Assembly: GCF_008520305.1 (NCBI RefSeq)
Contig: NZ_ML703270.1
Coordinates: 38,005 to 102,004, forward strand
Source: Mesorhizobium sp. SARCC-RB16n
Lineage (GTDB): Bacteria; Pseudomonadota; Alphaproteobacteria; Rhizobiales; Rhizobiaceae
Direction: 5' to 3'
DNA length: 64,000 nucleotides
Of this stretch, positions 3,163-11,699 are shown in pieces (positions within the stretch are counted from its first letter, which is position 1; each line of letters begins with the position of its first letter). A model generated the notes under the pieces. It had not been told where the DNA came from, ran no database searches, and saw nothing but the letters and a program-made list of their open reading frames with translations. The position numbers were made by a program, and so were the translations under genes.

Positions 3163-4647
3163 TCAGCGCAGCGGCGAAAAGGTCGCCGAGACCAGCTCGA
3201 ACGGCAAGGCGCCATAGGCGGCGACCGTCGCCTGATCATCCCATTGGCGGAATTGTCGCGACGGCCGCGCTTCCAGCGTCAAGGCATGCTGACGGCCGTC
3301 GACCATGACCTTGCCGCGGAAGCGCAGCACCCTTTCCCCACCGGATCGACTGATGGCCATGGCACGCAGGCGCGCGACGTGGTCGTCATCCCGGTTGATC
3401 TCCATTTCGATGCGGCGCCGGACCGGCGGAATGCTGATCCTGACCACGATGTCCAGCATCATCTCCCCCACCGTTGGCGGGCACGGTATGGTCTGCGAGA
3501 AGACCAGCGGCGACGGTCCCTCCAGCGGCTCGCGTGGGCCTGGCCTGCCACGCCATGCCTTGCCTCGCCACCCCTTGGCGGCTGGCTCTTGCCGCAGCCG
3601 GCCGCTCTTGCGTCTCAGCCGCAACTGCTTGGCAAAGCCGCGCGACAGCCAGATCAGCCTGCCGAAATCGGTTCGCGGCTTGGCCTGCAGCACCGCTGAC
3701 CAGCGCGAAAGGCCGGTGCGGTCGGCCATGTCAAGAACGTGCGCCAGCACCCTGTCCGGCACCGCCACGCCAATATCGAGCGCAAGGTAGGAGAGCGCCA
3801 CCGCCGCGGCAACGGCAAGGCCACGCCTGGCGACCACATCGAGGAACACATCCCAGTCGACGTCGCCGGCGCGAATGGCCACTGCGCAATCGACCAGCCA
3901 ATCGCTATGCGTGTGGGCGTCGAGCCCGCCATGCGCGATGGCGAGCGCGATGCGGTCCGCAGGCGACGGCACCAGCACGCCGACACCGCTGAATTCGGCC
4001 GCCGCCGCCCGCCGCCAGATCGCCTGGTCGTCCTCGTCGCTTTGCTGCGAACCGTCATAGGCAAGCTGGTGCAGATCGATGTCGCCATAATTGCCCTTGA
4101 AGAAGTTCATCGAGCGCAGCGAGGCCAGTCTTGTCCTCAGATATTGCGGGCTCACCCCGGTGGCGATCTGCCAGTCGCGGTCGCGTAGCACGTCGAACGC
4201 CGTTCGCATGTCCTGCGGCCGCACCAATATGTCGATGTCGTGCGCCACCCGGCCACGCTGCGCCGATGCGTTCAAGGCGATGCGGCTGGCCCCCTTGATC
4301 AGCATCACCAGGCATCCGGCGCCCGTCATCGCCTGCAGCGTCGGTTCGGCCTCGCGCATCGCCATGCGCGACTTGGTCCACAGCATCTTTTGCAGGCCGA
4401 CAAGACGTGGATAGGCGGAATGGCCGGCCAATTTCCGGCCGAACCGGTCGCAGATGGCGGCCAGCAGCCGATGCTCCCTGAAGGAAACGAGATCGATGTC
4501 GTTGGCGCTCAGCCACTGCATCGCTTGACCGGCGGCCGCGTCGTCGTCGGCAAGAAGCGCGGCCTTGAGCAACTGGTCGAGCCCGCCCGTCGGCCAGGAC
4601 CAGCCATAGTCCGGGAAACGTCGGCTGATGCGGCGGATGCGCGCCAT
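3163..4647 (-). CDS. NTP_transf_5-type nucleotidyltransferase of a PqqD/HprK-like system
   Basis: This 494-residue protein contains KGAS at about 118-121 and DIDI at about 137-140. This is the glycine-serine plus paired-aspartate signature of minimal nucleotidyltransferases of the uncharacterised NTP_transf_5 family. The family usually runs 330-380 residues. Here about 130 extra residues follow an arginine/lysine-rich linker near 345-365. Its ATG overlaps the stop of the preceding glycosyltransferase gene (ATGA), and it ends the operon that starts with a PqqD-like gene at 8396. Relatives are found beside HprK-like kinases and in some lasso-peptide clusters, where they modify peptides. The acceptor here is unknown. 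Confidence 0.68.
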   Translation of the reverse strand: MARIRRISRRFPDYGWSWPTGGLDQLLKAALLADDDAAAGQAMQWLSANDIDLVSFREHRLLAAICDRFGRKLAGHSAYPRLVGLQKMLWTKSRMAMREAEPTLQAMTGAGCLVMLIKGASRIALNASAQRGRVAHDIDILVRPQDMRTAFDVLRDRDWQIATGVSPQYLRTRLASLRSMNFFKGNYGDIDLHQLAYDGSQQSDEDDQAIWRRAAAAEFSGVGVLVPSPADRIALAIAHGGLDAHTHSDWLVDCAVAIRAGDVDWDVFLDVVARRGLAVAAAVALSYLALDIGVAVPDRVLAHVLDMADRTGLSRWSAVLQAKPRTDFGRLIWLSRGFAKQLRLRRKSGRLRQEPAAKGWRGKAWRGRPGPREPLEGPSPLVFSQTIPCPPTVGEMMLDIVVRISIPPVRRRIEMEINRDDDHVARLRAMAISRSGGERVLRFRGKVMVDGRQHALTLEARPSRQFRQWDDQATVAAYGALPFELVSATFSPLR

Positions 4648-5324
4648 CAGCCCGCGCCGGCCTTGTTCCGGGCCCGTCGCAGCATGGCCAGCCGCGCCAC
4701 TTCGAGGTAGCCGCGGTCGCGCGTCGCATCACGCCCGTAGGACAGGCTGCCGGGCCTGATGCGGCGCAGCGCCAGGACCTCCTCCATCATGTCGAGGACA
4801 AGGCCCGCCTCGCGTGCCCGCGCGATCCAGTCGATCATTTCGCCGCGGCCGCCCGGCGGATCGACGACTGGTCCGACGGTCTCGGCTACCTCGCGCCGGA
4901 TCAGCATCGTGGTCCGCGACCAGCCGGGCACGGTGGCGTCCTCGGGTGCGTCCGGCCGGTCATTGCGGAAGTTTCGCACATGGCAGAAGACGCCCGATGT
5001 GCCGGGCAATCCTCGCAGATAGGCAAGCTGACCCTCTATCTTGGTCGGCAGCCACAGATCGTCGGCGTCGAGCGTTGCGATGAACGGCGTCGACAGCGCG
5101 GCGATGCCTCTGGTCGTGGCGCTGCCCGGTCCGGCATTTGCCTGGCGCAGCAATTGCAGCGGCAGGTCCGTTCCGCCGATCGCCGCGGCGAGATCGTCGG
5201 TTGATCCGTCGTCGACGATCACCACCAGTTCCGGGCGCACCGTCTGCGCCGCGACCGATCGCAGCGTCTCGGCAATGGTGCCGCTGGCGTTGAAGGCCGG
5301 TATGACGACGCCGTATCGGTCCAT
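4647..5324 (-). CDS. Glycosyltransferase family 2
   Basis: The protein has 225 residues with a GT-A fold signature. It begins VVIPAFNASGT, has VDDGSTD at about 37-43 for nucleotide-sugar binding, and TLDADD as the metal-binding DxD region. The ATG at 5324 overlaps the stop of the upstream gene (ATGA) and is preferred to a TTG at 5339. The stop overlaps the next gene in the same manner. It is shorter than and clearly different from the two upstream GT2 paralogues. It probably transfers one sugar in the cytoplasm; donor and acceptor are unknown. Membership in the PqqD/HprK-like operon suggests the acceptor may be shared with that system. Confidence 0.8.
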   Translation of the reverse strand: MDRYGVVIPAFNASGTIAETLRSVAAQTVRPELVVIVDDGSTDDLAAAIGGTDLPLQLLRQANAGPGSATTRGIAALSTPFIATLDADDLWLPTKIEGQLAYLRGLPGTSGVFCHVRNFRNDRPDAPEDATVPGWSRTTMLIRREVAETVGPVVDPPGGRGEMIDWIARAREAGLVLDMMEEVLALRRIRPGSLSYGRDATRDRGYLEVARLAMLRRARNKAGAG

Positions 5325-6076
5325 CACAGGGAACGCCAATCTGAAAGTTTGTCGAGCTCGAAGATACCTTCGATCGGGCGCAGCGACGGGTCGGCCTTGC
5401 GCCGTTTCATGGATTTATAGATAGCGCGCAGGAATTCCCGCGACTGGACGCCCTCCTGCCTGGTCATGTTGCCCGCATGCCGTCTGTAATAGAGCGCGAC
5501 CGTGTCGGGAAGCACGTAACTGGGGCCGCTCTCAAAACCGCGCAGCAGGTAGTCGGTGTCTTCGGCCTGGACGAAGTCCTCGTCGAAATCGCCTATCCGC
5601 GCGACGAGCCGGCGCGCGAAGATCGCCGCCGACAGATGAATGCCACGAACCGTGATGCTGTTGCTGTCCGCCGTCGGCTCCAGGGTCCCGTCGTCGATCT
5701 TGTCGACCAGCATCATCCTCGAATAGGTCAGATCGAGATCGGGTTTCTTCCGGAAAAGCTCGACATCGGCCTTGAAGCGTCCGGCTGGCGAGATGTCGTC
5801 CGAGTCGAGGAACGACACGAGTTCCGCCTCGGGCTTGAGCTGCCTGAGCCCGCTGTTGCGCGCCCGTGTCACTCCCATGTTCTCCTGTTGGAACAGCCGG
5901 ATGCAGGAATGATCGTCCATGATGGCGCGCACGGCCTCGGCCGAGCCATCGGTCGAGCCGTCATCGATGACGATGATGTCGAGGTCTGCGGCGTCGCCTT
6001 GCCTGATCAACGAGCGCAGCGCAGCGCCGACATAGGCCTCACGATTGTAGACGGGCATGATCACGCTCAGTCTCAT
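5324..6076 (-). CDS. Glycosyltransferase family 2, second of a tandem pair
   Basis: The product is a 250-residue GT2 enzyme opening with MRLSVIMPVYNRE. It has DDGSTDGS at about 38-45 and SFLDSDD as the DxD region. The open frame extends to 6415, but that part lies over the neighbouring gene in another frame. The ATG at 6076 gives a protein of exactly the length of the upstream paralogue and aligned with it from residue 1. The two share most residues, including the tail (GIFEL...DWR.L), so they arose by tandem duplication. A 55-nt gap separates them, and the stop overlaps the next GT2 gene. Repeated GT2 genes usually add successive sugars to one acceptor. Confidence 0.8.
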   Translation of the reverse strand: MRLSVIMPVYNREAYVGAALRSLIRQGDAADLDIIVIDDGSTDGSAEAVRAIMDDHSCIRLFQQENMGVTRARNSGLRQLKPEAELVSFLDSDDISPAGRFKADVELFRKKPDLDLTYSRMMLVDKIDDGTLEPTADSNSITVRGIHLSAAIFARRLVARIGDFDEDFVQAEDTDYLLRGFESGPSYVLPDTVALYYRRHAGNMTRQEGVQSREFLRAIYKSMKRRKADPSLRPIEGIFELDKLSDWRSL

Positions 6077-6131
6077 CCTCGACCTCGCGGGCGCTGCGGC
6101 ACCATCCGATTTGATCGCGAGATAACGTGCA

Positions 6132-6884
6132 TCAAAGCACCCGCCAGTCGGGCGAGCTCTTGAGCTCGAAAATGCCGGGGATCTCACGAAGGGACGGGTT
6201 GGCCCTGCGTCGCCGAATCGATTTGTGGATCGCCCGCATGTGGTTGCGAAGCCGGCCCTCGTGCTCCTTGGTGACATTGCCGGCATGGCGCCTGTAGTAG
6301 ATCGCGACGGTCTCCAGAAGGCGGTAATTCGGACCCGTTTCGAAGATGCGCAGCAGATAGTCAGTGTCCTCGCCCTGATCGAATTCCTCGTCGAAATAGC
6401 CGATGCGATCGACAAGCGCCCGGCTGAACAGGCCGGTGCTCATCGAAATTCCGCGCAGCGTTACAGTGCGGCTGCCCGCTACAGGCTCCAGCGTGTTATC
6501 GTCTATCTGCTCGGCCAGGGTCATCAGGGAGTAGGTCAGGTCAAGGCCCGGGTCGGCCTCGAAGCAAGCCAGATCCGTCTTGAAGCGTCCGGCAAGCGAG
6601 ATGTCGTCGGAATCGAGGAACGACACAAACCCGGCATCCGGCGGCAACTGCCTCAGCCCGGCATTGCGCGCCTTCGCGACACCCATATTGGGTTGCAGGA
6701 ACAGGCGGATGCAGGACGCCTCGCGCATCGTTGACGTTATGGCCTCCACCGAGGCGTCCGTGGAGCCGTCGTCGATGACGATGATGTCGAAGTCGGCGTC
6801 AGCGCGCTGCCTGATCAACGAGCGCAGCGCAGCGCCGACATAGCGCTCGCGATTGTAGACAGGCAGGATCACGCTGAGCTTCAC
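6132..6884 (-). CDS. Glycosyltransferase family 2, first of a tandem pair
   Basis: This 250-residue GT2 protein opens MKLSVILPVYNRE, with DDGSTDAS for nucleotide-sugar binding and SFLDSDD for metal binding. A conserved EDTDYLLR motif lies about two thirds along. The start codon is GTG at 6884, and it overlaps the TGA of the HprK-like gene (GTGA), so translation is likely coupled. It is paralogous to the next gene over the full length. No membrane segment is visible, so it should act in the cytosol or at the inner face of the membrane. Substrates are not predictable from the sequence. Confidence 0.8.
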   Translation of the reverse strand: MKLSVILPVYNRERYVGAALRSLIRQRADADFDIIVIDDGSTDASVEAITSTMREASCIRLFLQPNMGVAKARNAGLRQLPPDAGFVSFLDSDDISLAGRFKTDLACFEADPGLDLTYSLMTLAEQIDDNTLEPVAGSRTVTLRGISMSTGLFSRALVDRIGYFDEEFDQGEDTDYLLRIFETGPNYRLLETVAIYYRRHAGNVTKEHEGRLRNHMRAIHKSIRRRRANPSLREIPGIFELKSSPDWRVL

Positions 6885-7930
6885 CAGGCGCCCCGTGTCA
6901 GGAAATCCTCGATCGTGCCGGCGATCTCTGTCGGGTCGGTGCCGAGGGACAAACGAAAGCAGGGCAGGTGGCGCGTCAATTCGCTGAAGAAGCGAAAGCC
7001 GCTCTCGCGCTCGCCCGGCATCTGTGCGGTGCCGGACGGCGCCAAGGCAATCATGGCGTCCCTGCGCGACACCGGCATGATCGAACTTGCTCCGCCTCCG
7101 CTGATATGTGGCACCACCAGCGCAACGATGTCCAGCATCGCGGGCACCGGCCCAGGCGCGATGTCATCAATGTGAAACGTGTGCTTGCCCTGCCAGTTCA
7201 GCGGGCCCTGCGCCGTTAGCCGCTGTTGCAGGCCCAGTCGCGTGAAACCTTGCGCATCCTGCTTCAGCGTCGAGAAAAGGGGCCGCGCGGCCACGCCTCC
7301 GGCGAGATCGATCAGCACATAGTCGTCGCCGACGCTGTCGAGCCCGTTGAGCAGGCCGGCTGCGACGGTGCCGGATTTCCCTGCCCCGCCCGAGCCGGCA
7401 AGCAGGATACCCTTGCCGTCGACGCCGAGCGTGCCGGCATGGGTCAGCCGCATGCCGCGCGCGGCATATTCCCAATGCAGGAAGGCGCGCAACGGTGCTC
7501 CCGGCTCCCATGGCGGAAAGGCCTCGGCCGAGGCCATCAGCTGCACGCCAATGCGACGTTGCGGATCGTAGATCTGCCAGAAATCCAGGTCGTGGAAATA
7601 GTGCCCGCGCAACCCGGCCTCGGCGAGCCGTTTGGCAAAACCGTGCTCGGTGAAATGCGCATCGCCCCAATGCGCTGGCTCGGGGATGCTGTCGATGCCG
7701 GGATGAGCGATGAAGATGCGGCACGTGGACGGTTCCGGTTGATCGTGACCGGCCTCGACAAATGCATGGCTCAGTGCATCGGCAAGCACACCATGGCCGA
7801 GATGCGCGGTCAGTTCCAGACGGGGCAGGCGAACCTTTCGTGTGGTCGGATAGCGCGCGGTCGCGCCTTCGGCGGCGGCGATGAGATACCGGGCGTAGTC
7901 GGGTAAGGTTTCGAGCGTGACGCGCGGCAT
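6881..7930 (-). CDS. HprK-related kinase-like P-loop protein
   Basis: The protein has 349 residues and a P-loop GSGGAGKSG at about 179-187, followed by GDDYVLID. This arrangement matches the catalytic half of HPr kinase/phosphorylase and its relatives. The N-terminal half is unlike the HprK regulatory domain. The ATG at 7930 is preferred because it clears the upstream gene by 34 nt; a longer frame to 8026 would overlap it. HprK homologues paired with PqqD-like and NTP_transf_5 proteins form the HprK-related A system, and in some lasso-peptide clusters such a kinase phosphorylates the peptide. The phosphoacceptor here is unknown, since no HPr or peptide gene of a known type sits beside it. Confidence 0.68.
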   Translation of the reverse strand: MPRVTLETLPDYARYLIAAAEGATARYPTTRKVRLPRLELTAHLGHGVLADALSHAFVEAGHDQPEPSTCRIFIAHPGIDSIPEPAHWGDAHFTEHGFAKRLAEAGLRGHYFHDLDFWQIYDPQRRIGVQLMASAEAFPPWEPGAPLRAFLHWEYAARGMRLTHAGTLGVDGKGILLAGSGGAGKSGTVAAGLLNGLDSVGDDYVLIDLAGGVAARPLFSTLKQDAQGFTRLGLQQRLTAQGPLNWQGKHTFHIDDIAPGPVPAMLDIVALVVPHISGGGASSIMPVSRRDAMIALAPSGTAQMPGERESGFRFFSELTRHLPCFRLSLGTDPTEIAGTIEDFLTRGAW

Positions 7931-7964
7931 CAAGCGCCTTCCATCACGGGCTGCGCCCGGCCGG

Positions 7965-8396
7965 TCAGGAAGCCTGCTTGACCGCCGGCCAGCCAAGAGG
8001 CTCTTCGACCTCATGGATGGGATCAACGACGATCAGGTCGGCGAGGTCGTCGTGAATGCTCACATTGAGCGGCTCGTTCGTGGCGGCAAGCTCGGCAGGC
8101 AATTCGCCTGGCAATGGCTGCGCAGTCGTTTCCAGACGCACCAGCAAACCCAATTCGAGCAATTGCGATATGAAGTGTTCGAGTTCGGCCAGGGCTATTG
8201 TCGAGCCGCCCGCGGCCAGCCCGACCAGAGCTCGGGCATCTACTCCGGACGAAAGCGCCTGCCAGACCTTGCTGCCGGAATCGGAGAAGCCGAAATATTT
8301 GCCGTTCGCAAGGTTGAGCACCACGGCTTCGCCATCGAAGGATTCGAAAACGATATCCCGGCTCGCAACCGCATAGGCATGGGAAACATGCTTCAT
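7965..8396 (-). CDS. PqqD-like peptide-binding protein
   Basis: The product has 143 residues. Residues 19-47 (FDGEAVVLNLANGKYFGF and following) match the beta-hairpin and helix core of PqqD, a small winged-helix domain that binds leader peptides in PQQ and many RiPP pathways. An acidic C-terminal extension of about 45 residues goes beyond the usual 90-residue family length. It is the first gene of a six-gene minus-strand operon. A purine-rich GGGG lies about 9 nt before the ATG. Upstream only a 132-nt gap separates it from gbcB. Its presence with an HprK-like kinase and nucleotidyltransferase suggests peptide or protein modification; the client is not identified. Confidence 0.72.
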   Translation of the reverse strand: MKHVSHAYAVASRDIVFESFDGEAVVLNLANGKYFGFSDSGSKVWQALSSGVDARALVGLAAGGSTIALAELEHFISQLLELGLLVRLETTAQPLPGELPAELAATNEPLNVSIHDDLADLIVVDPIHEVEEPLGWPAVKQAS

Positions 8397-8528: not shown

Positions 8529-9629
8529 TCACGCCTCGATTTCCAGTGCCGATAGCGGCCTGGAGCAGCAGGCCAGGATAAAACCATCATCGATCTCGTG
8601 ATCGAGGATGCCGCCATTGTGGCTCATTTCGACAGCTCCGGTGACCTTCTTCACCTTGCAGGTTCCGCACAGGCCGAATTCGCAGGCCGCTGGTATCCGC
8701 ACACCCGAGGCACGCGCCGTCTGCAGCACGGTCTGGCCGGCGACGCATTCGGCGTCGACATCCGAAAGCGCGAAGCGGATCGGTGTTGTGGCATCGACGG
8801 AAATTGCCGTGCCGTCTTCAACCGGTGAGGCAAACGGCGCCGGGATCTCTTCCACGGTCGGCGCGGCAAAGCTCTCCTGATGGTACTTTGCCATGTCGAA
8901 TCCAGCGGCCTCAAGCATGCCGCGCACCGCGCGCATGAAGGGATCTGGGCCGCAACAGAAGATTTCGCGTTCGCGGAAATCGGGCGCCAGCAGCGGCAGC
9001 CGGATGGCGTCGATGCGACCCATATGGCCGTACCAGCCCTCGCGGCTCGACCGCTCCTCGATCATGAAGCCGAGGGACAGGCCCGGCATATTGCCACCGA
9101 GCAGTTCGAGCTCCTTGCGGAAGATGATCTCTTCCGGGCGCCGCGCGCAGTTGACGAAGCCGACATCGGTCCATGGCGCGCAGTCGTTCAGCCAGCGCAG
9201 CATCGACATCATCGGCGTCACGCCGGAACCGGCAGAGATGAACAGATATTTCGCCGCCGGATGGCTGTGCAGTGAAAAGTCGCCGCCTGGTCCATAGGCC
9301 TTGACGTGCGAGCCCGGCGCCAGGTGATCGAACATCCAGCGTGTGCCGACGCTGCCCGCCTGCGCCTTCACCGTCACCGCGATCGAGAACGGTCGCGACG
9401 GCGAGGACGACAGTGTGTAGGTGCGCATCAGCGGGCCGTCCGTTGTCGGCAACTCCAGCGTCACGAACTGGCCTGGCTTGTAGCGGAACCAGGTCTGGTT
9501 GTCGGACCGGAAGGTAAAGGTCTTCACGTCGGGGGCCTCGTCGGTGATGCCGGTCACCTCCAGCACCTGCAGCCTGTCGTTCCATGGCGCCATCTGGTCG
9601 AGATGGCGATAGAGGCCAAGGTCGGTCAT
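8529..9629 (-). CDS. gbcB: Glycine betaine monooxygenase reductase subunit GbcB
   Basis: The protein has about 366 residues and two parts. The first is a ferredoxin-NADP reductase module with RTYTLSSSP for FAD and an NAD(P)H-binding half that ends in CCGPDPF. The second is a C-terminal plant-type [2Fe-2S] domain with CEFGLCGTC and a downstream cysteine. It passes electrons from NAD(P)H to the Rieske oxygenase GbcA, which demethylates glycine betaine to dimethylglycine and formaldehyde. The ATG at 9629 has a GAGGGG sequence at good spacing; a GTG at 9638 is too close to it. It lies 20 nt after gbcA. Related reductases serve stachydrine and carnitine oxygenases, so the substrate is inferred. 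Confidence 0.83.
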   Translation of the reverse strand: MTDLGLYRHLDQMAPWNDRLQVLEVTGITDEAPDVKTFTFRSDNQTWFRYKPGQFVTLELPTTDGPLMRTYTLSSSPSRPFSIAVTVKAQAGSVGTRWMFDHLAPGSHVKAYGPGGDFSLHSHPAAKYLFISAGSGVTPMMSMLRWLNDCAPWTDVGFVNCARRPEEIIFRKELELLGGNMPGLSLGFMIEERSSREGWYGHMGRIDAIRLPLLAPDFREREIFCCGPDPFMRAVRGMLEAAGFDMAKYHQESFAAPTVEEIPAPFASPVEDGTAISVDATTPIRFALSDVDAECVAGQTVLQTARASGVRIPAACEFGLCGTCKVKKVTGAVEMSHNGGILDHEIDDGFILACCSRPLSALEIEA

Positions 9630-9649
9630 CGCATTCACCCCTCAGCCTC

Positions 9650-10897
9650 TCATGCGACGCTGCGCAGCGCCGGCCGCCCGCCTTCGGCAAGGCGCGGGCC
9701 GATGAAGCGGGCATACCAGTCGACGAACTGGATAACGCCGCCCTCATGCAACTCCGAATAAGGGCCGGGCTCGTAGGCCGGCGACAGGATACCGAAGGCG
9801 TTCTCCTCGACGATGCGGCGATCCTGGTCGTTGGTCTCGGTCCAGACATGGGTGAGTTCGGCGAGATCGTAGTCGACGCCCTCGACCGCGTCCTTGTGCA
9901 CCAGCCATTTGGTCGTCACTGCTGTTTCTGTGGCGCTGACCGGCAGCACGCGGAAGGTAACCGCATGATCCACGAGGATGTGGTTCCAGGTCGTCGGATA
10001 ATGATAATGCATCAAGGTGCCGATCTGGTCGGCCGAAACGCTGTCGGACAGGTTCTTCTTCACTGCCCGCCTGCCGGTCATCGTGTAGCTCTGGGCATCG
10101 CGCAGCAGCGGCGCCCGGGTGGCGCGGTATTGCCCGGCCGGATCGATGCGGAACTTGCTGGGCAGGCCAGCAGCCTCGCACTTCGCCCAGTGGGCCAGCA
10201 TCTCCGGGTCTCTGTCGGCGCCTTGCACTCCGGTCACGGTCGGTGCTTCCGGGAACGTCTTGCACAGCTCCGGATGATTGCCTGCACAATGGTAGCACTC
10301 GCGGTTGTTTTCCCAGACCAGCTTCCAGTTGCCCTTCTCGATGATCGTGCTCTCGAAGGCGACCTTGGCCTCGCTCAGCCGGTGCGGCTGGAGATAGGGC
10401 TCGATCAGCGCCCGCATCGGCGCGAAGTCGGGGGGCTCCTTGGCCAGGCAGATGAAGACATAGCCGGCGACGCTTTCGCAGGCGACCGGCTTGAGCCCGA
10501 ACTGGCTCTTGTCGAACCCATCGGTCATCTGGCGGGCGAACAGTAGCCGGCCGTCAAGCTCGTAGGTCCACTGGTGATAGGGACAGACCAGTTTGGCGGC
10601 CATGCCCTTGTCGCTGTTGCAGACGCGGCTGCCGCGATGGCGGCAGGAATTGTGGAAGGCGTTGATCTTGCCTTGCTGATCGCGCACCAGCACGACCGGA
10701 TAATCGCCGATCTGCACGGTGATGAAGCTGCCCGGCTTGGGCAATTCGCAATCATGGCCGATGAACAGCCAGTCGCGGTACCAGATCAACTCCATGTCCA
10801 GCTTGAAGTAGTCCGGGTCGGTATAAAAGGGCTGTTCCAGTGAAAAGCCCTGTCTGCGGCTGTTCAAGAGCCTCAGCATGTCGTTGCGCGCGTCCAT
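9650..10897 (-). CDS. gbcA: Glycine betaine monooxygenase oxygenase subunit GbcA
   Basis: This 415-residue Rieske oxygenase has CRH at 85-87 and CPYH at 105-108 for the [2Fe-2S] cluster. The mononuclear iron histidines sit in ECYHCAGNH at about 200-208. The stretch around ENNRECYHC and NHPELCKTFPE is typical of GbcA. The enzyme removes one methyl from glycine betaine using O2 and electrons from GbcB. A clear AGGA ribosome binding site precedes the ATG at 10897. A cobalamin riboswitch lies about 120 nt upstream on the same strand and nothing else intervenes, so expression is probably lowered when B12 is plentiful. Stachydrine or another betaine remains a possible substrate. Confidence 0.84.
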   Translation of the reverse strand: MDARNDMLRLLNSRRQGFSLEQPFYTDPDYFKLDMELIWYRDWLFIGHDCELPKPGSFITVQIGDYPVVLVRDQQGKINAFHNSCRHRGSRVCNSDKGMAAKLVCPYHQWTYELDGRLLFARQMTDGFDKSQFGLKPVACESVAGYVFICLAKEPPDFAPMRALIEPYLQPHRLSEAKVAFESTIIEKGNWKLVWENNRECYHCAGNHPELCKTFPEAPTVTGVQGADRDPEMLAHWAKCEAAGLPSKFRIDPAGQYRATRAPLLRDAQSYTMTGRRAVKKNLSDSVSADQIGTLMHYHYPTTWNHILVDHAVTFRVLPVSATETAVTTKWLVHKDAVEGVDYDLAELTHVWTETNDQDRRIVEENAFGILSPAYEPGPYSELHEGGVIQFVDWYARFIGPRLAEGGRPALRSVA

Positions 10898-11019
10898 GTC
10901 CTGTCCTCATTTTCAAGGACTGAACTGGTGGTGATTGAGGAAGGACTGGGCGCAGATCGGCGAAAAGCCGGACAAACACCATCCGCCTCTTGACCGCCCA
11001 CCGCGATCAGTCGAGTTCT

Positions 11020-11207
11020 AGCCATCTCGGGCTGGTTTCCGGGCTCTGGAGTTGTCCTTGCGGACGATCGCGACACCTTCCCAGGCCTTCGCCCAGTGGT
11101 CTCCCGTTGCGACTTGAACTCCACCACCGTTGCGGGGGCAGCGCCGGAATCTGACCGGCTTCCCAATTCTCCGCTCCATCGTCACGCAGCGGCACCTGAG
11201 ATGCCTG
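11020..11207 (-). ncRNA. Cobalamin (adenosylcobalamin-type) riboswitch upstream of gbcAB
   Basis: Reading the minus strand from about 11207, GGCATCTC (first stem) and AGGTGCC are followed by GGGAAGCCGGT, ATTCCGG and CTGCCCCCGCAAC, the B12-box core. After it come ACCACTGGGC, CCTGGGAAGG and finally GAGCCCGGAAACCAGCC with GAGATGGC closing the first stem. These blocks occur in the order and spacing of the alphaproteobacterial cobalamin riboswitch. The element ends about 120 nt before gbcA. That leader could form a hairpin from GGGCG and CGCCC, a possible expression platform. The exact ends are approximate. Confidence 0.9.
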
Positions 11208-11699
11208 ATCTAATCACGACAGGGTTTGGGACATCGGCACGAAAGCGACATCGCATCCATGCGGCGCGACACGCATGCTGGATCGTCGTGACAGGGTCGT
11301 GGAATCGCCTTCTGTCAGCCAGGCGCGCCGGCACTGTTTCGACCTTTGCCGGGGATAAAAAGGTTAACAGTTTCAAAAAGTGACTATTAGCAGAGTCTAA
11401 AATCGAACCGAACGGTTCGTTTCTGTTGACGGTGCGTGCAGGACGGTGTGAACGCCGAGCCTCCGACACAGTTGGTGATCGAGGCGCTGGTCTTAGATAA
11501 CGACTTGATATTACGAAGAAAAAGAACGAATGTGGAAAGCCCTGGTACAATTTCAAGTGGTGGAGTCATGGTCCACGCTGAACAACTTCGTGATTGGAAA
11601 CGGCCGGAGGGCTCTCCCACATCGGGGCTGTCCGAACGACGCGATTTTTAATCCCAAGACACGCCGCTAGACGGACGGAAAAATACTGGAGTACCCAAA
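11208..11699. other. Intergenic region between the gbc riboswitch and the DUF680 genes
   Basis: About 490 nt of lower GC content separate two divergent transcription units. It should contain the gbcAB promoter on the minus strand and the DUF680 promoter on the plus strand. A 16-bp inverted repeat CGAACCG-AA-CGGTTCG lies at 11404-11419, followed by TTGAC at 11427. A 71-codon plus-strand frame (11436-11651) and a minus-strand frame in the same place show no family features. I do not call either one a gene. Confidence 0.5.
11404..11419. promoter_or_regulatory. 16-bp inverted repeat, possible TetR-type operator
   Basis: The arms CGAACCG and CGGTTCG are perfect 7-bp inverted repeats separated by AA. 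A TTGAC hexamer starts a few bases downstream at 11427, so the repeat could overlap or flank a promoter for the DUF680 genes. The shape resembles operators of TetR-family repressors, but no such regulator is encoded nearby. The regulator is unknown. Confidence 0.35.

Follow-up and report, generated by a model that had tools for sequence, protein, structure and literature searches.

A cobalamin riboswitch precedes a gbcAB-like Rieske demethylase operon in Mesorhizobium and relatives and co-occurs with an MttB-type corrinoid methyltransferase

Introduction

To our knowledge, riboswitch-controlled pairs of B12-dependent and B12-independent enzymes are few, namely metE/metH and nrdAB/nrdJ. The Mesorhizobium locus analysed here resembles the RF00174-controlled metE and nrdAB units in several respects: a full aptamer leads an enzyme that needs no B12, the genomes hold a B12-dependent enzyme thought to perform the same step, a hairpin lies at the ribosome binding site, and in some genomes the locus adjoins such units. 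It differs in encoding a catabolic Rieske N-demethylase, with an MttB-type corrinoid methyltransferase as the partner. Furthermore, unlike those of metE/metH, the two routes would yield different C1 products, formaldehyde versus methyl-tetrahydrofolate. The proposed logic follows metE and nrdAB, and what is new is the enzyme controlled and its partner. Isozymes of B12-dependent enzymes are named as a regulon class in PMC3766115, whose main text does not contain the word ‘betaine’. Among the matches listed, no report places a cobalamin riboswitch before gbcA or before any Rieske demethylase, and the supplementary Rhizobiales regulons of PMC3766115 may hold an unremarked entry.

The operon resembles GbcAB, the two-component Rieske glycine betaine monooxygenase of Pseudomonas and Chromohalobacter and its best NCBIfam match. 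Known GbcAB systems are controlled by GbdR-type regulators and are not known to be under a riboswitch; here, in contrast, control would lie with a riboswitch, and both proteins fall below the equivalog cut-offs. The stachydrine demethylase Stc2 (PDB 3vca, 4qup) is similar too, being a group V Rieske enzyme with a Cys-X-X-Cys motif near the iron site (PMC10952381). On the corrinoid side, MtgBCD-type genes of Ruegeria demethylate glycine betaine aerobically with cobalamin (PMC12478193). In its available sections, that paper treats GbcAB as an alternative in other bacteria and draws no B12 link between the routes, and the word ‘riboswitch’ occurs there once only, within the title of a reference on glycine.

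We consider it likely that the riboswitch represses an O2-dependent, B12-independent, gbcAB-like betaine demethylase which backs up MtgBCD.

The riboswitch and its target operon

In the window (the whole 64-kb stretch of Mesorhizobium DNA that was analysed), a single Rfam match reaches the gathering thresholds, namely a cobalamin riboswitch located upstream of two genes on the minus strand:

11013..11214, minus strand: cobalamin riboswitch aptamer RF00174, full length (cmscan 105.5 bits, E 2.1e-25)
9650..10897, minus strand: gbcA-like Rieske [2Fe-2S] oxygenase of the quaternary-amine demethylase family, 415 aa (PF00355 and PF00848)
8529..9638, minus strand: gbcB-like FAD/NAD/[2Fe-2S] reductase of the gbcA operon, 369 aa (PF00111, PF00175 and PF00970)

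The RF00174 match spans model positions 1-189 of 189 and lies far above the gathering score of 31.5, which places the element within the family. A sequence-only reading had proposed a B12 riboswitch core on the minus strand at 11207-11020. All four of its core strings are found in addition to the full-length match, and the Infernal search that it had suggested gives a significant cobalamin match at 105.5 bits. It had also stated that no B12 gene lies before gbcA, 120 nt on. The distance from the end of the aptamer to the start of the oxygenase is 115 nt, a gap too small to hide such a gene. A chance match is ruled out by the cmscan score and by conservation among relatives, named loci and class homologs (see below). 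Among open reading frames of at least 90 aa, the sole other one at the element is a 97-aa minus-strand frame which overlaps the aptamer and looks spurious. The promoter scan gave no sigma-70-like site, and two terminator-like sites were found, both on the plus strand.

The reductase frame starts 11 nt after the oxygenase frame ends, and the domain content fits a predicted two-component Rieske N-demethylase. By domains and alignment, the oxygenase has the features of group V Rieske demethylases: a Rieske and a ring-hydroxylase domain, a Cys-X-X-Cys motif by the iron site and a reductase partner. Its best NCBIfam match is NF058607 (GbcA) at 519.8 bits, under the curated equivalog cut-off of 670; that of the reductase is NF058606 (GbcB) at 355.7 bits, under the cut-off of 500. 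Because both proteins miss these cut-offs widely, the name gbcAB is used here for a family resemblance and not for a proven assignment.

Next to gbcAB, at 4647-8396 on the minus strand, the window encodes PqqD-like and HprK-related kinase-like proteins, neither of which reaches its cut-off. Family-2 glycosyltransferases (PF00535, two frames tested) adjoin them. This region is possibly a modification cluster.

Leader anatomy

Two further elements were located on the minus strand between the aptamer and the start of gbcA:

10991..11009, minus strand: conserved hairpin motif UGAUCGC-GGUGG-GCGGUCA, which closely follows the aptamer and occupies the position of a P13 stem-loop
10894..10928, minus strand: predicted sequestor hairpin over the Shine-Dalgarno sequence (GAGGA, 10908-10904) and the gbcA AUG, from folding and 21 leaders

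The post-aptamer hairpin lies in a 36-nt stretch which folds at -11.4 kcal/mol (z -1.9). Its motif, [CT]GCGGNGGGC, is shared by all 59 gbcA leaders that carry a riboswitch and absent from the 22 that do not. Among the riboswitch loci of relatives only one of 30 has it, L019, which is a gbcA leader too; the other 29, which represent 20 of the 21 relatives together with their kin, do not show it. Since the motif is peculiar to gbcA leaders, the gbcA switch appears to be a lineage of its own. CCACU at 11099-11095 is a possible partner for the GGUGG loop and would form an L5-L13 kissing pair with it. In 16 of the 59 gbcA leaders the loop reads GGCGG or GGAGG, and because the pairing fails where the middle base differs, it is retained as a candidate.

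In the sequestor, CCAGUUC-A-GUCCUUG pairs with (C/U)GAGGAC-A-GGAC-AUGG, and the 46-nt stretch has a minimum free energy of -15.1 kcal/mol (z -2.9). Across 21 aligned leaders, in which the loop is of variable length, 93.9% of cells are paired, as opposed to a maximum of 46.4% for slid versions of the pairing. No compensatory changes occur in the arms of these 21 leaders, a second set (n=14) being excluded from that count on account of poor alignment. When an 87-nt segment is folded, the Shine-Dalgarno sequence pairs instead with an upstream UCCUUCCUC stretch. The mean Shine-Dalgarno pairing probability is 0.74 for the 59 riboswitch leaders versus 0.47 for the 22 others; as a comparison of means, this runs in the direction expected.

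A candidate antisequestor, formed by the GGUGGUGG segment of the aptamer with the leader, was dropped, as the pairings differ by locus and the segment overlaps positions paired in the Rfam model. The core regular expression of that scan misplaced the GGUGGUGG segment in a few loci, e.g. L061-L064 and L090. Within about 200 nt upstream of gbcA at L060, L061 and L063, inspection by eye revealed a palindrome-rich insert of about 100 nt. It interrupts the loop of the hairpin over the Shine-Dalgarno sequence and leaves both arms of the stem intact, which would suit a loop able to accommodate a repeat element.

Distribution among gbcA homologs

Conservation was assessed at three distances. Within the genus (13 genomes; 21 relatives scanned in all), RF00174 lies directly upstream of all eight close orthologs, at 80-98% identity, as the sequence-only reading had anticipated for other Mesorhizobium genomes. 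One of these loci is clipped by a contig end and one is split across two frames. In the nearest genome compared (G001:C1:399645-400888), the gbcA ortholog lies in two reading frames while the riboswitch still scores 108.5 bits.

Beyond the genus, the best 80 of 594 loci in named genomes were scanned, at 70-96% identity, with a profile built from the riboswitches of the relatives. A riboswitch stands just upstream on the same strand in 58 of them, and cmscan concurs on the 16 positives and all 22 negatives submitted to it. The riboswitch-bearing loci include Mesorhizobium, Aminobacter, Pseudaminobacter, Aquibium, Shinella, Phyllobacterium, Pannonibacter and Labrys, as well as Sinorhizobium fredii, one Ciceribacter species, some Rhizobium and Inquilinus.

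Lastly, a class-wide draw of 387 genomes contained 32 with a GbcA homolog at E <= 1e-100. The leader of the best match was checked in 20 of them; G001 (already known) and the 11 weakest, among them the mttB-carrying G330, G249 and G145, were left out. The riboswitch precedes 11 of these 20 homologs, at 46-72% identity.

Gene neighbourhoods

In the fetched neighbourhoods of 101 gbcA loci, nrdA occurs in eight, with its own riboswitch visible in seven (L069 is clipped at the locus end), metE in two and metH in three. At L078 and L080 the gene order is [RS]nrdAB-[RS]gbcAB-metE[RS], where RS denotes a riboswitch, and at L083 riboswitch-gbcAB comes after riboswitch-nrdAB. At L164 and L165, gbcAB and nrdAB are divergent, and their two cobalamin riboswitches, one for each operon, stand back to back. 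The nrdAB of these two loci differs in type from that of L078, to whose proteins it shows 34% and 28% identity, and ribonucleotide reductase domains were found at L164.

Other neighbours may relate to the demethylation product. At L084, fdhA, a glutathione-independent formaldehyde dehydrogenase (over cut-off), lies directly 3′ of gbcAB, and beyond it comes a GbdR-like regulator that scores below cut-off; homologs of the two genes also occur at L087. Formaldehyde-consuming neighbours fit a demethylase of this kind. Cobalamin synthesis or uptake genes are found at some loci, for example a tetrapyrrole methylase and Peripla_BP_2 at L083 and a TonB receptor and FecCD at L071.

Co-occurrence with a corrinoid methyltransferase

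MttB (PF06253) is present in all 57 searchable riboswitch-bearing named genomes, a set which does not include that of the riboswitch-bearing L088, and in all 11 of the class set. In relatives of the window strain, the B12-dependent family is thus found in the same genome as the riboswitch in 68 of 68 cases searched. In contrast, where the gbcA copy has no riboswitch, MttB was found in one of 22 named genomes and two of nine class genomes; the class background is 85 of 387. With and without mttB, the counts are 68 and 0 for riboswitch genomes versus 3 and 27 for the others (Fisher p 4e-21, kinship ignored and a duplicate dropped); the class set alone gives p 5e-4. The duplicate arises as G466 and the genome of L103 give identical matches, which are counted once in totals of 30 and twice in totals of 31.

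MtgD behaves in the same manner. It was searched for in 80 genomes: 38 of the 57 named genomes with a riboswitch, the 22 named genomes without one and 20 of the class. NF005719 scores over cut-off in 48 of 49 riboswitch genomes and in three of 31 without a riboswitch, and these three exceptions are those of MttB: L109 (Ciceribacter lividus), G191 and G133 carry both mttB and mtgD and yet have no riboswitch before gbcA. Conversely, G314 has the riboswitch and mttB but no mtgD match. G004 and G017, both with mttB, hold only more distant homologs, two of them in G017, all without a riboswitch. The genome of the window itself probably carries MtgBCD; mttB is present for all five loci that are closest on the tree and in all 12 genomes of the genus that were searched.

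The gene set resembles that of Ruegeria pomeroyi as described in PMC12478193: at L137, in a riboswitch-gbcAB genome (G057), MttB lies with MtgC, MtgD, a MetF-like protein, DUF5981, DUF1638 and a RACo-type activase. Homologs of MtgC, MtgD and DUF1638 flank MttB in five of six such loci fetched; L138, which is among the five, comes from genome G060, an exception. The sixth, L135, has no mtgC or mtgD homolog beside MttB, and the mtgD of its genome (G048) is elsewhere on the contig. Among solved structures, the L137 MttB is nearest to 4yyc (1089 bits), while the glycine betaine methyltransferase 9yce gives 418 bits.

Shared ancestry has to be considered. On a tree of 101 proteins, built by a quick method and including some long branches, the riboswitch and mttB each need seven changes. 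Seven independent pairs chosen by riboswitch show agreement of the two traits five to six times and opposition never (p 0.03-0.06); chosen by mttB, seven pairs agree four to six times and again never oppose (p 0.03-0.125). The link is consistent and never reversed, and after kinship correction its significance is only borderline.

MttB might be a mere proxy: the true B12-dependent partner would then be another co-travelling enzyme, or the riboswitch would have been copied, unselected, from a neighbouring nrdAB or metE leader. Several features would suit this account, which we nevertheless think improbable. Kinship inflates the raw association, nrdA lies near gbcA in the eight loci noted above, and genomes often hold several MttB paralogs, the top-scoring one reaching 760-800 bits in nearly all riboswitch genomes. 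However, the pattern of mtgD matches that of mttB, and joint loss of the riboswitch and mttB recurs on the tree. Moreover, the gbcA riboswitch does not look like a fresh copy, because its leader has its own post-aptamer hairpin motif, which all 59 such leaders share and the 29 other riboswitch loci checked lack.

The genomes without the riboswitch are informative in another way. All 31 (30 distinct) have metH, 29 have NrdJ over cut-off and 30 have other cobalamin riboswitches, so that loss of the gbcA riboswitch through a general loss of B12 use is ruled out. The MttB/MtgD route is absent from 28 of the 31 (27 of the 30 distinct), which indicates that the MtgBCD route, and not B12 use in general, is gone. 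This bears on a precursor-supply account, in which low B12 would induce GbcAB and betaine would be turned into glycine and C1 units for the synthesis of B12 and SAM. Betaine is known to raise the B12 yields of production strains, and the cobalamin genes at L083 and L071 would fit such a role. On the other hand, most gbcA copies without the riboswitch come from genomes that also lack MttB yet retain metH, NrdJ and other cobalamin riboswitches, and the neighbours of riboswitch-gbcAB also include B12-independent isozymes. We regard this account as very improbable, less credible even than the proxy. The sequence-only reading had named betaine as a methyl source for B12 synthesis as its second option, which the same genomes disfavour. 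Its first proposal, a B12-independent partner of a corrinoid methyltransferase, is strongly backed by the distribution of MttB and MtgD and by the nrdAB and metE neighbours in some genomes, while B12 as the off signal is read from leader anatomy.

Two observations on related genes are recorded here. In 16 Rhizobium-clade loci without riboswitch or mttB (L092, L095, L097, L099, L101, L103, L104, L106, L108, L110, L112, L114, L115, L117, L119 and L163, the last a duplicate of L103), tblastn found no gbcB-like reductase in the fetched neighbourhood; the same holds for L169 and L180. The oxygenase of this Rhizobium clade may use another reductase or have another role. In two genomes (G001:C1:134316-137046 and G013:C20:21407-24139; L045 and L043), a Rieske paralog with 35% identity to the window protein adjoins a divergent mttB (334-338 bits), which is a predicted second pairing of both chemistries.

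Substrate of the demethylase

Glycine betaine was the substrate proposed in the sequence-only reading; this is not established, as the window protein is below cut-off for GbcA and about equally close to Stc2. Its nearest solved relatives are 3n0q (547 bits) and 3vca and 4qup (Stc2, 541 bits), compared with 520 bits for the GbcA model. The same switch could serve a Rieske pair and an MttB whose substrate is not glycine betaine but proline betaine (stachydrine), a common component of legume exudates, or some other N-methylated betaine. The riboswitch is also found before the homologs closest to 3n0q (L170, L171), and the MttB superfamily covers several betaines (PMC12478193, in the sections available).

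Several observations stand against this. The one close Stc2 relative examined, L038 from the genus, the more distant homolog of G004 mentioned above, scores 763 bits to Stc2, compared with just 541 bits for the window protein, and has no riboswitch. In addition, the riboswitch-bearing L175-L178 score 635-662 bits with the GbcA model, close to the 670 required, and the neighbourhoods of gbcAB at L084 and L087 hold the GbdR-like and formaldehyde dehydrogenase genes described above. A different betaine as the substrate is possible but the less probable choice, although it is a good deal more plausible than the proxy or the precursor-supply account.

Proposed mechanism and implications

In the favoured reading, a B12-controlled backup of MtgBCD, repression by cobalamin would be translational. 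Plentiful cobalamin would bind the aptamer, and the hairpin over the Shine-Dalgarno sequence and the gbcA AUG would form. With the sequestor in place, the O2- and NADH-dependent Rieske N-demethylase would not be translated. In B12-replete cells the corrinoid-dependent MtgBCD would demethylate betaine and pass the methyl group to tetrahydrofolate. When B12 is scarce, MtgBCD would stand idle, the hairpin would open and GbcAB would take over, the methyl group being released as formaldehyde. We infer B12 binding, the direction of control, the translational mode and, by homology, the substrates of both the Rieske protein and MttB.

A more elaborate version seems to us evenly balanced between right and wrong. 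It holds that this is a distinct riboswitch lineage with its own expression platform, in which B12 chooses the fate of the methyl group (tetrahydrofolate via the corrinoid or formaldehyde via O2) in many alphaproteobacterial genera and for more than one Rieske N-demethylase subfamily. With B12 bound, L5 (CCACU) would capture GGUGG; otherwise GGUGG would pair with CCACC upstream of the Shine-Dalgarno hairpin and hold that hairpin open.

Taken together, a B12-sensing RNA appears, in many soil and plant-associated bacteria, to keep an O2-dependent betaine demethylase off while a B12-dependent route to the same end can work. If this is true, it would add a third, catabolic pair to those of metE/metH and nrdAB/nrdJ, and it would account for the presence of two routes of betaine demethylation in some rhizobia. 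The riboswitch-gbcAB arrangement would be a simple genomic marker. The finding would also round out the recently described aerobic MtgBCD route, naming both its backup and the switching signal. In the rhizosphere, B12 status would decide the use of betaine carbon.
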